Assembly: GCA_023382935.1 (NCBI GenBank)
Contig: JAHDXL010000008.1
Coordinates: 1-64,000, forward strand
From: Phycisphaerales bacterium
Lineage (GTDB): Bacteria; Planctomycetota; Phycisphaerae; Phycisphaerales; UBA1924
DNA length: 64,000 nt
Reading direction: 5' to 3'
A model generated the notes under the pieces. The model was not told the origin of the DNA, made no database searches, and saw only the letters and a list, made by a program, of their open reading frames with translations. Shown here piece after piece: positions 23,230-61,358 of this stretch. Each line of letters starts with the position of its first letter. The first letter of the stretch is position 1. A program made the translations under genes and the position numbers.

Positions 23230-24576
23230 TCAGGGACACGGGTTTCCAAGCAGCATGTCCATGACGCAGCGATCTTCCGAATTGACCACACCGTCGCCGT
23301 TCATGTCCGCACGCGGGTCGCGCGCATACCAGTAACTGGAGAAGAGGCGCTGGTCCAAGAACCCGACCTGCCCGTCGTCGTCAAAGTCGCCTAGGACGGG
23401 GTACGGAAGTGTGGTCATGGAGCGTCGCAGCAAACTCTTGTCGATCTCCTGGTCGATCCAGTATGCGTAGCAATCGACCACGCAGGGGGACTGGTTGAAA
23501 ACGAGAGAGTTCATGTAGCCTGAGATGACGGCCAGGGTGTTCTGCAGCGTCGGATCGACACCGTCCTCGACGAGGTATCGATTATCATCGCACGATGCCT
23601 GGTTGTAGATCTTGATGGACAGCAGCGGACAGATGCGGAAGTAGTTACCTTCGGCATCACGCACCGGCTCGTACACTGACCACAACAGCGGATCGACGTT
23701 GGCACAGCCGGAATCCGGATCCCACGGCGAGCCGCCGCACGACCCATACTCGATCTGCGGGCCTCGCGTGAGTGCCCGCACCGTCACGTTGATCATCCCA
23801 AGATAGCGGGCCGAGCAACTGCGGATGGGAGTGCCGCCCGAGCACGACTGCACCTGGTCGTTGGGCGACCAGCCGCTGAACACCACGGGGCAGAGGTAAT
23901 CGACGTTGCGCAGCCAGTCGCGCGGGTCGGCCGCCTTGAGTTTGAAGAAGGCTATCTTGCGAACGAGTTCAGCCGAGGAGTTCCCGTTGCGCCGCCCGCG
24001 AATGACGCCGAACAAGCCGATTTTCGAGCCAGGGAATCCACGTCGCGTCAGGTCGGCGCACTTTCCATACTGGGCCATGATTGCATCCACCAGAACGTGG
24101 CCGCTCATTCCCAGGACGGTCGTGTATCGGTAATGATCGAGCAGGTTATCAGGGTGGGCGACCAGTTGGTTGCCCTCGATGTCCATGATGATCATGCCAC
24201 TGAACGCACTTTCGGGCACATAGTTGTAATACTGCCCGCTGTCCGCGTCGTAACCGACCTGGTAGTCGTTGGGGAACCGCGAGGCCACGAAGTTGTTCAT
24301 GGCCTGCGACAACTGCTCATCGGTGCGCGTCAGGAAGTCTTCGAGCGAATACGACACATGGTCCGGCGTGCCTGCGGCGTAGACGCTTCCTCCGATGAGA
24401 AATGCATCGGTGCGAAGCAGCCCGTACATCTCGAGATTCTCCGAGAGCGGGATACCCTGCTGGGCGATCAGCACCGTCGAGCCCATCGCGCGCTTGGTGG
24501 TGTATTCGCATTGGGCGTGAGCACCGCCGGACAGAACCGCGGCCGACAGACTGGCCGCATACAAAGGCAAACGCAT
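23230..24576 (-). CDS. Secreted protein with C-terminal dockerin-like loops
   Basis: A 448-residue exported protein. The signal peptide (about 1-21) ends in GAHAQ, and GGAGGAGAG is an excellent ribosome site before the ATG at 24576. The body (22-390) is Cys- and Tyr-rich, with no family that I recognise. The last 55 residues hold two dockerin-type calcium loops, DFDDDGQVGFLDQ and DMNGDGVVNSEDR, the usual ending of planctomycete secreted proteins. The dockerin-like end may bind a cohesin-like partner or anchor the protein at the surface. It converges with the plus-strand gene ending at 23127. Confidence 0.72.
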   Translation of the reverse strand: MRLPLYAASLSAAVLSGGAHAQCEYTTKRAMGSTVLIAQQGIPLSENLEMYGLLRTDAFLIGGSVYAAGTPDHVSYSLEDFLTRTDEQLSQAMNNFVASRFPNDYQVGYDADSGQYYNYVPESAFSGMIIMDIEGNQLVAHPDNLLDHYRYTTVLGMSGHVLVDAIMAQYGKCADLTRRGFPGSKIGLFGVIRGRRNGNSSAELVRKIAFFKLKAADPRDWLRNVDYLCPVVFSGWSPNDQVQSCSGGTPIRSCSARYLGMINVTVRALTRGPQIEYGSCGGSPWDPDSGCANVDPLLWSVYEPVRDAEGNYFRICPLLSIKIYNQASCDDNRYLVEDGVDPTLQNTLAVISGYMNSLVFNQSPCVVDCYAYWIDQEIDKSLLRRSMTTLPYPVLGDFDDDGQVGFLDQRLFSSYWYARDPRADMNGDGVVNSEDRCVMDMLLGNPCP

Positions 24577-24708
24577 CTCAGGCTCTCCTCCGGGCTTTTT
24601 CCCTGCAATACATCTGTGCTCTGGGAGATATGAGGGGGTCATGCTAACGCAAACAGAGGTTTGTGTCCAGAGGCCTTGAATCGGGGGGGCTGGTCGCCCA
24701 GATTTCAA

Positions 24709-56296: not shown

Positions 56297-56902
56297 ATGC
56301 GGCAAAGGGGTCTTTGCTTCCTCCTCGCCTGCTCAACCTGGGCTAGCGCGGACGTCACGCTCGAGTTCCGCCCGGAAGCGGCAGTGGTACCGGTGGGTCA
56401 GTCGGCACGGGTCGGGCTCTATGCGACTTGGGATGGCCACGCCTACGGGCGGACCATCTCGGCGGTCGAACTGGTCTTTGCCTGGGATCAGCCACGCCTC
56501 CGCCTGCTCGGGCTGGACCCTGCGGGCGCGGTCCCTCTTCTCACGTCCGGCTTCCCGAGCGTTGGCTCGGGCGGGCTGAATGAGACCTCGCCACCGGCCG
56601 ATGGCAACGGCCTGTACCGGGCGTTGGCGATGCTGGGCATGCCCATCGACACCACTGAAGGCGCTCTGTTGACGACATTCGTGTTCCGTGCCTGGTCTCC
56701 CGCGGGCGAGGCGCCGGTGAGCATGTTGATCAGTGCCGGCTCACCGGTGGTGCACACGCGCGTGTACGACGGGGTCGTCCCGAATGCCGACGCCACCGGT
56801 GCGTTGATCGGAACTTCGATTTGCATCGTGCCCGCGCCGGGCGTGGGCGTGTGTCTGTTGCTGCCGGGGCTCCTGTTGATGGGCGGGCCCCGTCGGCGGT
56901 AG
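56297..56902 (+). CDS. Secreted cohesin-like protein with PEP-CTERM-like tail
   Basis: A 201-residue exported protein. The signal peptide (about 1-18) ends in WASAD. The body (about 19-170) looks like a cohesin-type beta sandwich. The last 24 residues read VPAPG, a hydrophobic stretch CLLLPGLLLM, then RRR: the layout of PEP-CTERM-type surface-sorting signals. It is closely paralogous to the protein at 60034; conserved stretches include GLNE and LLTTFVF (LVTTFLF in the paralog). GGAGGGAG precedes the ATG at 56297. It is probably exported and anchored at the surface. No exosortase gene is in the window. Confidence 0.72.
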   Translation: MRQRGLCFLLACSTWASADVTLEFRPEAAVVPVGQSARVGLYATWDGHAYGRTISAVELVFAWDQPRLRLLGLDPAGAVPLLTSGFPSVGSGGLNETSPPADGNGLYRALAMLGMPIDTTEGALLTTFVFRAWSPAGEAPVSMLISAGSPVVHTRVYDGVVPNADATGALIGTSICIVPAPGVGVCLLLPGLLLMGGPRRR

Positions 56903-56963
56903 TGAGGATGGAGCGTCCTTGCCACGGGCGTGGGGACGCGGAAGCCCATTTCGTCGTGCCGCT

Positions 56964-56985
56964 CTCCCAGCCGCCGGCTGGGGAG
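56964..56985. terminator. Hairpin between secreted-protein genes
   Basis: CTCCCAGCC at 56964-56972 faces GGCTGGGGAG at 56976-56985; the core CCCAGCC/GGCTGGG is a perfect 7-bp stem with loop GCC and one bulged G outside. It lies between the end of the 56297 gene and the start at 57019. No T tract follows. Confidence 0.35.
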
Positions 56986-57018
56986 GCGGTCAAACCGTCT
57001 CGATTTGGGAGGATCACC

Positions 57019-59913
57019 ATGCAGAAGAGGAAATTGCGTCTGGTTCAGAGCGTGTGCGCCGCCACGCTGGCCGCTTGCGCAGGGCAGGCTTTCGCCCAGG
57101 TCAACGTTGATCCGACGAAAGCCAATGGCGACTTCATCTCCGGTTCCGGCATTCCCGGCAACAACTTCCAGTCTCACCAGGAAGATGTGTCTGTCTTCAT
57201 GAAAGCCCGCGCCCGCGTCGGCGGAGACCCCCTGGCCCTCAACGGCAACACCGCCATCGTGCTCACCGGACTGGCGCCGGGTCATCCGACGGCCTCGTGG
57301 TGGTCCTTTGACTTCCAGTTCACGCCGCGACTGACCGATGTCGTCAACGGGCAGAACTACCTGCTCACCCTGTTCGTGGACGTCAATCCGACCGCCGGCA
57401 CCAACTTCAAGGTCGTCTCGAATCCCTTCTTCGACGCCGACGTCGATCCGTCGAACAGTTGGGACGAGAATGACGGGTACTTCGTGAACCCCGGCGGTGG
57501 CGCCTGGTCGACCAACGACATCGATTACGTCTTCAGCCAGTCCTGGCGGGCCGACTTCGGGTTCCTCAACGGGTCGATTCTGCCTGCAGGTGACTACGAA
57601 CTGAAATTCACGGCCATGCCGATGGGCGGTCCGAAAGACGGCAGCACCGTCGCCGTGTCGCAGCACGTCCGCGTGCTCGACGCCAGCGTCGCCTCGCTGA
57701 CGCTCGACGCGCAGGACGCCTGCCTGGATGACTCAGAGACGCAAGTCATCGTCGAGATCAACCTCGCCAACGCGCAGGACGTCATCGTCGGCGGACAGTA
57801 CTTCCTGTCCTACGACAAGACCAAACTTGACTTCGTGTCGGCTGACGCGGGCGATGCGCCCTTCACCACCGAGATCTTCGAACTGGTCAATGAGGGGACG
57901 GGCGAGATCACCTATTCGACCGGCGACCTCTCGGGCACGGGCACGAGCGCCGCCACGACCATGGCGCGCCTCACGTTCGAAGTGCTCGGCGACTTCTGCG
58001 CCCAGGACGACCTGGTCACCTTCCGCACCGGCGTTCTGCCGACGCGCCTGACCGACGACTCCGGTGCCGACATCCAGCCCAACCTGGTGAACCTGCACAT
58101 CGTCACGCACGACAGCGTGGCGCCGGTCGTCACCCCGCCGCCCGATTTGTCGCTCTACGCCGACGCGGGCACCTGCTCGGCCGTGATCGACGGGGTCGAG
58201 AACTTCGAGGCTCCGATCGCCACCGGCCCGACCCAGGCGCCCGGTGTGTGGTACACGGACCGCTATCCGCCGGCGGCCTTCGAGAGTTCCGGCGGCCTTC
58301 TGCGCATCGGTATCGACGATTCTGACTCGCAGGCCAACCGTCCCGGCGCGTACAGCAGCGCCTTCTACAACACGCAGGGGCGCAAGTACGACGTGAACCT
58401 GCCCGTCGGCACTAAGTGGTCCGGCAAGTTGTACATCCCCAGTGACTGGGGGACCGACGCGCGGCGCTCGGACATCTGGGCGACCACGTTTGGCAGCCAG
58501 AATGCCATTTCCGGCTATCCGATCCTCGGCTTCGTGTGCAACGATCCGTCCGATCCGATCAACCCCGATCCCGTCAGCCCGTCGCCGCGTTTCCGCTGGT
58601 ACACGCAGGACACGGACCAGAACCCGTCCAACGGGTACACGGCCGATTGGGTGGACCTCGGCCTGCCCTCGGGATTCTCGTACAACCGCTGGTGGACGCT
58701 GGAGATCGAGATGACCAGCGGGGCGTTCATCGCGCGCGTGATCGACGACACCAACGCCGTCGTGCTGACCTACACCGACATTCTCACCTTCGGAAGCGTC
58801 CGCGCCGGCAACATCATCATGCAGGCCTACAACTTCGGCGAGGACTACGACGCACTGTGGGACGACATCACCATCGGGCCCGAGGGCGCCATCGCCACCG
58901 ACAACTGCTCTGACGTGCTCGTCACCTACTCCCGTCCCGACGGGCTGAGCATGACCGATCCGTTCCCGGTCGGCACGACGCCGGTCACCTGGTCGGCCGC
59001 CGACGCCTGCGGCAACACCACCACCGCCACGCAGTACGTCACCGTGGATGGCAACAGCCTGCTCGACGTGGCCGTGGAACTCCAGGGCGTGGTGAACGCC
59101 GGGCCGTTCGATCGGTGTATCACATTTGAACTGACGCCCGTGAGCGGGCCGGTGGTCACGGTTTCGGAGACCATGACCTTCAACGGCGGCATCGCGGTCG
59201 GGCTGATCGAGGTGCCGTGCGGGACGTACACCTGCATCACCGCCCGCGACGGGCTGCACACCCTGCGCAGCACCGACTCGGACGACTTCCTCGTGTCCGG
59301 CACCTACTTCGTCTCCGACTTCAGGGGCGGGGATGAACTGATCGGCGGCAACCTGAACGCCGACACCTACATCGACATTCTTGACTTCGGCATTCTCGTC
59401 GGGCAGTTCGGGCAGACGGTCGGGGCCGGCGCGCCGTGCGGCACGGTCGGTCCGCACGCCGACATCACCGGCGACGGCTCGGTCACCACGGGTGACTTCA
59501 CCTTCGTGCAGATCAACTTCCTCAAGTTCAACGAGGCCCTGTGCACCGCCCCGATGCCTTGGGCCGGCGCCGCGCGCTCCACCGACGTGGGCGAGCCGGT
59601 GGCACGCCCAGTCACCAGCATCTCGGTCGAAGAACTGCGTCGCCTCGGGCTGGAAGACCTCGTCGCTGCCGATCTCAACGAGGACGGCATGCTCGACACC
59701 GCCGACCTGGCCGAGTTCATGATGGGTGCTCGTCCAAACCATCTGGCCGACGTGGACGGCAGCGGGCGGGTGGACTTCTTCGACGCCCAGCAGGTCATCG
59801 CGCACATGAACGAGCGCATCGGCCTGCCCTATGACATGAACGGCGACGGCTGGGTCACCATCGAGGACTTGCAGTTCGTCATCAACCGCCTCGGCATGAC
59901 GTTCGGCCACTGA
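57019..59913 (+). CDS. Large secreted multidomain protein with dockerin-like loops
   Basis: A 964-residue exported protein. The signal peptide is at 1-25 (ending GQAFAQ). Residues 25-222 form an unrecognised beta domain. About 223-365 is cohesin-like (VGGQYFLSYDKTKLDFVSAD is the typical strand pair). An HYR-like domain begins at about 368 (PPPDLSLYADAGTCSAV) but is interrupted by about 230 residues (394-625) resembling a concanavalin/lectin-type beta domain, resuming as TDNCSDVLVTYS to about 676. From about 774 come five dockerin-type calcium loops (for example NLNADTYIDILDF, DITGDGSVTTGDF, DMNGDGWVTIEDL). GGGAGGA precedes the ATG at 57019. A surface role is inferred. Confidence 0.85.
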   Translation: MQKRKLRLVQSVCAATLAACAGQAFAQVNVDPTKANGDFISGSGIPGNNFQSHQEDVSVFMKARARVGGDPLALNGNTAIVLTGLAPGHPTASWWSFDFQFTPRLTDVVNGQNYLLTLFVDVNPTAGTNFKVVSNPFFDADVDPSNSWDENDGYFVNPGGGAWSTNDIDYVFSQSWRADFGFLNGSILPAGDYELKFTAMPMGGPKDGSTVAVSQHVRVLDASVASLTLDAQDACLDDSETQVIVEINLANAQDVIVGGQYFLSYDKTKLDFVSADAGDAPFTTEIFELVNEGTGEITYSTGDLSGTGTSAATTMARLTFEVLGDFCAQDDLVTFRTGVLPTRLTDDSGADIQPNLVNLHIVTHDSVAPVVTPPPDLSLYADAGTCSAVIDGVENFEAPIATGPTQAPGVWYTDRYPPAAFESSGGLLRIGIDDSDSQANRPGAYSSAFYNTQGRKYDVNLPVGTKWSGKLYIPSDWGTDARRSDIWATTFGSQNAISGYPILGFVCNDPSDPINPDPVSPSPRFRWYTQDTDQNPSNGYTADWVDLGLPSGFSYNRWWTLEIEMTSGAFIARVIDDTNAVVLTYTDILTFGSVRAGNIIMQAYNFGEDYDALWDDITIGPEGAIATDNCSDVLVTYSRPDGLSMTDPFPVGTTPVTWSAADACGNTTTATQYVTVDGNSLLDVAVELQGVVNAGPFDRCITFELTPVSGPVVTVSETMTFNGGIAVGLIEVPCGTYTCITARDGLHTLRSTDSDDFLVSGTYFVSDFRGGDELIGGNLNADTYIDILDFGILVGQFGQTVGAGAPCGTVGPHADITGDGSVTTGDFTFVQINFLKFNEALCTAPMPWAGAARSTDVGEPVARPVTSISVEELRRLGLEDLVAADLNEDGMLDTADLAEFMMGARPNHLADVDGSGRVDFFDAQQVIAHMNERIGLPYDMNGDGWVTIEDLQFVINRLGMTFGH

Positions 59914-59940
59914 CGCCGCTCGTGGAGCCTCCTCTTGGGA

Positions 59941-59978
59941 GGAAGGGGCCAATCACCCCTTCCCCCGTTTGCGTTTTT
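59941..59978 (+). terminator. Intrinsic terminator of the large secreted protein gene
   Basis: GGAAGGGG at 59941-59948 and CCCCTTCC at 59956-59963 form a perfect 8-bp stem with a 7-base loop CCAATCA. It is followed by GTTTGCGTTTTT, with T5 at the end. It lies 28 bases past the stop at 59913 and before the next start at 60034. This is the best terminator in the window. Confidence 0.68.
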
Positions 59979-60033
59979 CGGTGTCCCAAACCTTGTGCGG
60001 GCTGACTGGGCCCGTGTGGCGGGGGTGCATGCG

Positions 60034-60924
60034 ATGAGACGTTGGCGCCGACTCTGGCAGTGGGAAACAGCATTCGCGGCCGCGGCGATCAGCGGCGTCG
60101 CACAGGCTGACATCCATCTCGAACTGCGGGTCAGTTCGCCGGTGGTGTACCTGGGTGACCAGTTTGTCGTCGGTCTGTATGCCGTTTCCGATCATCCCAT
60201 GCTGAATCAGACCTTCAGCGCGATGGAAGTCGTGCTTGCGTGGGAGACCGCATCCGTGCAACTGGTGCAGTTGCTCGGCAATGGCGATGTCAACCTGATC
60301 ATCGAGGGCTTCCCCGTCACCGGCTCACACGGGCTGAATGAGGTCGAGCCGCCGCAGGACGGCGACGGACTCTACATCGCCTGGGCCCAGCCCGGTGTGC
60401 CTGCGGTCGCCACGCCGAGCGGCACACTGGTCACGACGTTTCTGTTCGACGCGCTGGTCGTCGATCCCGCGGCCCAGATCACCATCCTTGAATCCGGCGG
60501 CAGCCCCGAGATCGACACCATAGTTTTCAGCGGCAGCATTCCCAATCTCTCCATCACCGGCACACTCACCGGCGTGGCGGTGCAGATCCGCCCCATTCCC
60601 TGCGGCCCGGCCGACCTGAACGAAGACGGCGTGCTCGACTTCTTTGACGTGCAGATGTTCCTGCAGGGCTTCTCCGACCAGGACTCCATCTCCGACTTTG
60701 CCACGCCCTTCGGAACGTTCGACTTCTTCGACGTGCAGGCCTATCTCCAGTTGTTTTCCGACGGCTGTGTTCCGCCGACCTCGCGCAAACTGGGCCCCGT
60801 GGCACTGGAAATGCTGTATGGCGACCCCTTCGCGGTCGTGCTGGGTGATTCGCACGCTGAAGAGTTTTCGGCCCGCCTGTGGTACGGGTGCAAGTCCGCT
60901 TCCACGTACCGTCCCACGTCCTAG
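60034..60924 (+). CDS. Secreted cohesin-like protein with dockerin-like loops
   Basis: A 296-residue exported protein. The signal peptide is at about 1-25 (Arg-rich start, ending VAQAD). Residues 26-188 are a cohesin-like domain paralogous to the 56297 protein, sharing GFP...GLNE and LVTTFLF. At 193-248 two calcium-loop regions follow: DLNEDGVLDFFDVQMFLQ, and then GTFDFFDVQAYLQLF, which lacks the first Asp-rich loop. A 48-residue tail after this looks unrelated to the family and may be a late frameshift or an added extension. The terminator at 59941 lies just before it, so it needs its own promoter. Confidence 0.7.
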   Translation: MRRWRRLWQWETAFAAAAISGVAQADIHLELRVSSPVVYLGDQFVVGLYAVSDHPMLNQTFSAMEVVLAWETASVQLVQLLGNGDVNLIIEGFPVTGSHGLNEVEPPQDGDGLYIAWAQPGVPAVATPSGTLVTTFLFDALVVDPAAQITILESGGSPEIDTIVFSGSIPNLSITGTLTGVAVQIRPIPCGPADLNEDGVLDFFDVQMFLQGFSDQDSISDFATPFGTFDFFDVQAYLQLFSDGCVPPTSRKLGPVALEMLYGDPFAVVLGDSHAEEFSARLWYGCKSASTYRPTS

Positions 60925-61358
60925 TCCAACGGATTGTCGAATCACCCGGCGCGGCTCGTGCGATCGGTGGCCTTGACCACCTCGCGTCCGGTCGATGCAT
61001 CGACCTCGTTCGAGATGCACCAGGGCTCCGGGGCCTGCGACGCCGGGCCCGCAGCCGCCCACACGCGGGTACGCGATGAAATGCTTCACACCCGCCGCGG
61101 GTGGTGCCGGCGGCGATTCGCCGCACCCGGAGACCCGAGCGATGGAGGTCAGGGTGGACAGGGCGCCCCCTGCGGCACGGCTGGTACTGCTGGAAGTTCA
61201 GGCATCGCCAATGATGGCGGCGTTGGGGCGAGCAGGGATCTGGCCAACCCCTGCTCCCAGCGGGGGCCCCAGCCCTGATCCCCCCGGCATGCTGTTCGCG
61301 TAAACACGCGAGGTTAGGGCGCGGGCGTTCAAGGTGAACCGCGCTTTCGGCGCGGCGG
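60925..61358. other. 434-base gap with no supported gene
   Basis: Several short open frames exist here on both strands, but none has a ribosome site, signal peptide or known motif. Two hairpins are visible near the metF end: TCGCGT/ACGCGA around 61275-61293 and CCGCGC/GCGCGG at 61339-61355. The latter could terminate metF on the minus strand, though no T tract follows. Confidence 0.45.

Follow-up and report, generated by a model that had tools for sequence, protein, structure and literature searches.

In a window of 64,000 nucleotides (the whole stretch of DNA analysed) from a planctomycete-type bacterium, three adjacent genes encode a giant dockerin-bearing protein, P0002, flanked by two paralogous small proteins, P0001 and P0003, which share one domain and end differently. 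Across related bacteria the small member of this set keeps its body and swaps the tail by which it is probably held on the cell surface, and it is nearly always a neighbour of the same large partner or fused to it. Our preferred reading, to which we give a probability of roughly 0.4, is that a tail-anchored cohesin-like protein holds the dockerin of the giant, in the manner of the ScaE, ScaB and ScaC proteins of Ruminococcus flavefaciens. The three genes would then form a single set whose products are secreted and probably bound to the cell surface. An export signal, a single cohesin-like domain and a retention tail at the C-terminus would make up the small protein, this tail being a PEP-CTERM sorting signal processed by the genome's own exosortase in P0001, a GC-type dockerin in P0003 and other modules in relatives. 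P0002 would be a multi-domain scaffold or adhesin with a cohesin of its own and C-terminal dockerins. Once anchored, the small protein would hold the giant through calcium-dependent binding of its cohesin-like domain to the giant's dockerin-type C-terminus, as ScaE holds ScaB, and P0003 would take the part of a ScaC-type adaptor.

Organization of the locus

The features of the locus are as follows.

56297..56902 (+): P0001, 201 residues, with signal-peptide-like start, cohesin-like domain and PEP-CTERM-like tail
56348-56839 (+): cohesin-like domain of P0001
about 56828-56899 (+): PEP-CTERM-like tail of P0001
57019..59913 (+): P0002, the giant partner, 964 residues; in order, signal peptide, unknown N-terminal domain, cohesin, insertion-split HYR and conserved C-terminal module with dockerin loops
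57721..58176 (+): cohesin of P0002, the sole Pfam cohesin detected in the genome
58963..59742 (+): P0002 copy of the giants' conserved C-terminal module, with RCITFEL / CITARDxLHTLR beta region and dockerin-like loops
59746..59892 (+): Dockerin_1 of P0002, with two canonical calcium loops
60034..60924 (+): P0003, 296 residues, with signal-peptide-like start, cohesin-like domain, GC-type dockerin and remnant tail
60106-60600 (+): cohesin-like domain of P0003
60601..60768 (+): GC-type dockerin of P0003 (residues 190-245)
60769..60921 (+): 51 residues of P0003, the start of a hydrolase-like C-terminal region otherwise lost (GDSH motif)
60922..60924 (+): TAG stop of P0003; TAC in the relative L061
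60925..61093 (+): remnant of the P0003 gene beyond the stop, with the junction of a 943-bp deletion near 61049

All evidence presented here derives from sequence; signal-peptide and PEP calls are motif-based, and the signal peptide of P0002 was judged by eye. The first-pass annotation of this DNA had proposed that the two small proteins are paralogues over about 150 residues. Protein alignment confirmed their relatedness far beyond chance and over a slightly longer stretch, with 44% identity across 172 residues (E 5e-39). All three genes are under purifying selection, with dN/dS values of 0.20, 0.17 and 0.15 for P0001, P0002 and P0003. The neighbour genes scanned in the window were mostly housekeeping or unrelated and gave no functional hint. 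A dockerin-type protein (PF00404, borderline) adjoins the SRP54 gene at 23233-24708 (-).

The giant had been described as carrying cohesin-like and dockerin-like parts, and Pfam indeed detected in P0002 a Cohesin (PF00963, 26 bits against a curated cut-off of 24.1) as well as Dockerin_1 in two places (E 2.8e-15); its HYR stayed under the cut-off (E 0.0088). In the giant of relative L112, HYR, Cohesin and Dockerin_1 all pass or meet their Pfam cut-offs. Across the giants, Pfam matched the cohesin in 23 of 44, and the profile of the family matched solved cohesins with E 1.7e-7.

Nature of the shared domain

The domain shared by P0001 and P0003 was unmatched in both by the Pfam scan, and only two of 40 small domains reached Pfam Cohesin, weakly (best E 3.8e-4). 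The cohesin-like nature attributed to it at first sight was nevertheless supported by profile comparison: the small-domain profile matched the giant-cohesin profile with a score of 44.9 over 90 columns (E 7.7e-7), while the score fell to about 12 with reversed profiles and reached 18.0 at most in 60 column shuffles. The first 28 PDB matches of a poor model of P0003 (six sequences, pLDDT 37.5) were cohesins, none of them below E 0.001, a fold search that counts as a supporting hint only. Prediction for P0002 was likewise of low confidence (four sequences, pLDDT 28.5), and for this reason no fold or complex claim is based on either model. We call the small domain cohesin-like, as its profile points to a remote relative of cohesins that is mostly missed by Pfam.

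Linkage of small and giant genes in relatives

Within the order, 36 of 400 genomes gave a match to a profile of the shared domain; when 392 genomes from across the phylum were sampled, matches came from the window genome and two others. Many of the genomes compared are fragmented metagenome assemblies. With a giant-type gene defined by the presence of the cohesin or of the conserved C-terminal module, 41 of the 47 non-fused small ORFs had such a gene within 1 kb in the regions fetched, on the same strand in 39 of these 41 pairs, and five further small copies were fused with the giant in one chain. Among the six unlinked small ORFs are L098 and L099, whose frames break off at contig ends and resemble truncated fusions, and one at L095, an antisense frame that is probably spurious. 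In each of two distant genomes of the phylum, a pair of small genes likewise lies next to a giant gene. Only one Pfam cohesin is detectable in the window genome, so the adjacency of small and giant genes is not a by-product of abundance. The local three-gene set seen at first pass is thus real, and its arrangement is conserved across many genomes as well.

Hardly any locus lacks the cohesin-like domain on the small protein or a dockerin-type C-terminus on the giant. It is because these two features persist in nearly every relative that we propose them as the binding pair. Against this ScaE-like model, the C-terminal dockerin of the giants may serve only retention, like some 100 other dockerins of the genome, and the set is missing from most genomes of the order.

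The one-chain fusions at L095, L096, L097, L105 and L106 are made of the small domain, MopE-like metal-binding repeats, the cohesin and the C-terminal module of the giant; the repeats of the L097 fusion match PF11617.

Exchange of tails on the small protein

The C-terminus of P0001, IVPAPGVGVCLLLPGLLLMGGPRRR, reads by motif as VPAPG followed by hydrophobic residues and PRRR. Even at E 10, PF07589 did not match this tail, which has VPAP in place of the near-invariant Pro-Glu-Pro of PEP-CTERM. The readable PEP-CTERM tails of the window genome are, however, mostly of this PAP variant followed by RRRR (VPAPG...RRRR), its PEP-CTERM proteins ending in [VI]P(A/T/S)P..hydrophobic..RRRR. P0001 and five relatives have the motif, the hydrophobic stretch and the basic C-terminal cluster of these members. 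The window genome encodes an exosortase (PF09721, E 1.1e-44), as do, with it included, 34 of the 36 genomes having the shared domain. That tail type might be tied to the presence of an exosortase was rejected, nearly all of these genomes having one.

Tail classes were assigned by eye; counted by row, the small proteins carry a PEP-CTERM-like tail in six cases, a GC-dockerin in seven, a classical dockerin pair in 22 and a fusion in seven, the rest having other ends. P0001 and P0003 belong to the same starred set, whose nine rows comprise seven with a GC-dockerin and two with a PEP tail. On the tree, starred branches force at least three changes for the PEP tail and one for the GC-dockerin. Genome G111 holds a second pair of this kind, PEP-tailed L119 and dockerin-tailed L093, on different contigs. 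The different ends noted earlier for P0001 and P0003 are truly different, although the dockerin of P0003, taken then as its end, is followed by 51 residues.

The exchange of dockerin and PEP-CTERM on one conserved domain suggests a comparable job for both tails and offers a small, well-defined pair on which to examine this. Families in which homologous ectodomains carry different C-terminal sorting tails have been reported for GlyGly-CTERM, LPXTG and PEP-CTERM (PMC3237569); here, in contrast, one of the alternatives is a dockerin, a folded module with calcium loops that lacks the tripartite build of sortase-type tails. Our literature search found no paper on exchange between dockerin and PEP-CTERM, nor on dockerin with PEP-CTERM in Planctomycetes. 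An exosortase-anchored cohesin-dockerin scaffold on a planctomycete-type cell, in which the PEP-tailed cohesin-like protein captures the dockerin of the giant and the sorting tail can be traded for a dockerin, seems to us unlikely; if true, it would make dockerins an alternative device for surface retention.

A third C-terminal end of about 96 residues (WVxSTxLKYR...) was observed on the small protein at L059:10490-10777 and L060:6996-7283, that of L059 being Pfam-negative.

GC-type dockerins and their possible partners

In the window genome about 103 GC-dockerins stand against one Pfam cohesin. The 26 locus-less genomes sampled have 6 to 150 GC-dockerins each, and in 25 of them Pfam cohesin was absent at E 0.001. 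The locus as a general receptor for GC-dockerins was rejected, since locus-less genomes may be this rich in them and almost never have a detectable cohesin. As GC-dockerin-rich genomes often show no recognisable cohesin, their receptor may be a divergent cohesin, for example the small domain, or something else. Planctomycete-type genomes can hold 100 GC-type dockerins or more.

These same numbers favor another explanation, by which dockerin tails are generic retention or sorting modules, and the cohesin-like domains serve adhesion by binding something other than dockerins. Small and giant protein would then be partners in a matrix or in adhesion, with no contact between cohesin and dockerin, and the tails would swap because their job is identical. 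The alternation of PEP-CTERM and dockerin on a single ectodomain also speaks for it, as does the NCBIfam name of the family, dockerin-anchored. What such a view does not account for is the repeated occurrence, beside dockerins, of a true cohesin together with a second cohesin-like domain; we hold it, tentatively, for quite possible.

Nearest to the first-pass annotation is the idea that the GC-dockerin of P0003 binds the cohesin of P0002 and so docks the small protein onto the giant. The two modules are indeed adjacent, intact and under purifying selection, with a dN/dS of only 0.04 for the GC-dockerin when compared to the same-genus relative L061. However, the giants of L111, L118, L119 and L126 keep their cohesin where the small protein is PEP-tailed and free of dockerins, so binding of a dockerin tail is not the only reason for its presence. 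Together with the abundance of GC-dockerins where no cohesin was found, this weakened the proposed docking of the P0003 calcium loops into the cohesin of the set, and we consider it distinctly improbable.

Genome G218 (L118), of the family of the window genome, has the locus and two GC-dockerin hits, as compared to 70 to 120 in most locus-bearing relatives of the family.

Comparison with known systems

It had been stated that no described system was of exactly this form. The giant, however, matches the cohesin-HYR-dockerin adaptor of the 'planctosome', a hypothetical assembly of freshwater Nemodlikiaceae, class Phycisphaerae (PMC6461901). This adaptor of a non-cellulose cohesin-dockerin set resembles P0002 and its relatives in its signal peptide, dockerin, HYR and cohesin (PMC6461901), the combination being present in P0002 with a sub-threshold HYR, and the three domains all being found in L112. 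The planctosome model lacks a counterpart of the small cohesin-like protein and its exchangeable tails, and its anchor is a lamin-tail protein (PMC6461901). Neither dockerin-bearing peptidases of planctosome type nor a lamin-tail anchoring protein was found at the locus. We regard the set as a variant close to the hypothetical planctosome.

The ScaE-like model rests on the following parallel. In R. flavefaciens, ScaE is a single cohesin with an LPXTG tail that binds the dockerin of ScaB, ScaC is a small adaptor with cohesin and dockerin, and ScaB is a larger cohesin-bearing scaffold with a C-terminal dockerin (PMC2930009). ScaE, ScaC and ScaB are encoded in one cluster (PMC2930009) and recall P0001, P0003 and P0002, respectively, a likeness that is architectural only. 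In our set, PEP-CTERM and exosortase stand in for LPXTG and sortase, the small domain is mostly missed by Pfam, the giant P0002 has one cohesin, and there is no link to cellulose. The set does not qualify as a cellulosome, defined by a scaffoldin with several cohesins and by dockerin-bearing cellulases, since the genome has one Pfam cohesin.

P0003 also belongs with the GC-type dockerin domain-anchored proteins (NCBIfam NF041540), scoring 36.3 bits over the curated cut-off of 29. It departs from this family in the 51 residues after its dockerin, as does L061 with a whole hydrolase-like region.

The P0003 dockerin and truncation of the gene

The dockerin of P0003 is not at the extreme C-terminus, 51 residues following it, compared to about 430 in L061. 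The small proteins of relatives usually stop at the dockerin, and those of L114, L116, L117 and L120 end at or just past a GC-dockerin. In L061 (genome G146, of the window's genus), the P0003 orthologue extends beyond the dockerin into a hydrolase-like region of 428 residues. DNA alignment of the window with L061 showed TAG at 60922-60924 for TAC, followed by the 943-bp deletion near 61049. With two lesions present, one sequencing error is an unlikely cause, though a faulty assembly is conceivable. Directly past the stop, the sequence had a dN/dS of 0.11, and loss of the hydrolase-like part thus looks recent. The swapped end of P0003 is real, but its exact terminus is an apparent accident of truncation.

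These lesions, and the retention of the set in just 36 of 400 genomes, would also fit a reading in which there are only shuffled domains and a neighbourhood kept by descent, P0003 being a decaying gene with no present function. However, small and giant genes are repeatedly linked or fused, in several families as well as in remote members of the phylum, and P0003 is conserved up to its dockerin, where relatives usually end. We consider this reading highly improbable.

The hydrolase-like part of L061 had no match in Pfam or PDB, and its putative SGNH nature is read from the GDSH/GDSW motif and its relatives. Distant relatives of the lost part contain a GDS motif, several of them with their own GC-type dockerin at the C-terminus; L138, L139, L141 and L144 are stand-alone proteins of this kind. 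The L061 record bears the title Cyanobacteria bacterium CYA N2_1, a label that looks wrong since G146 is assigned to the genus of the window genome.
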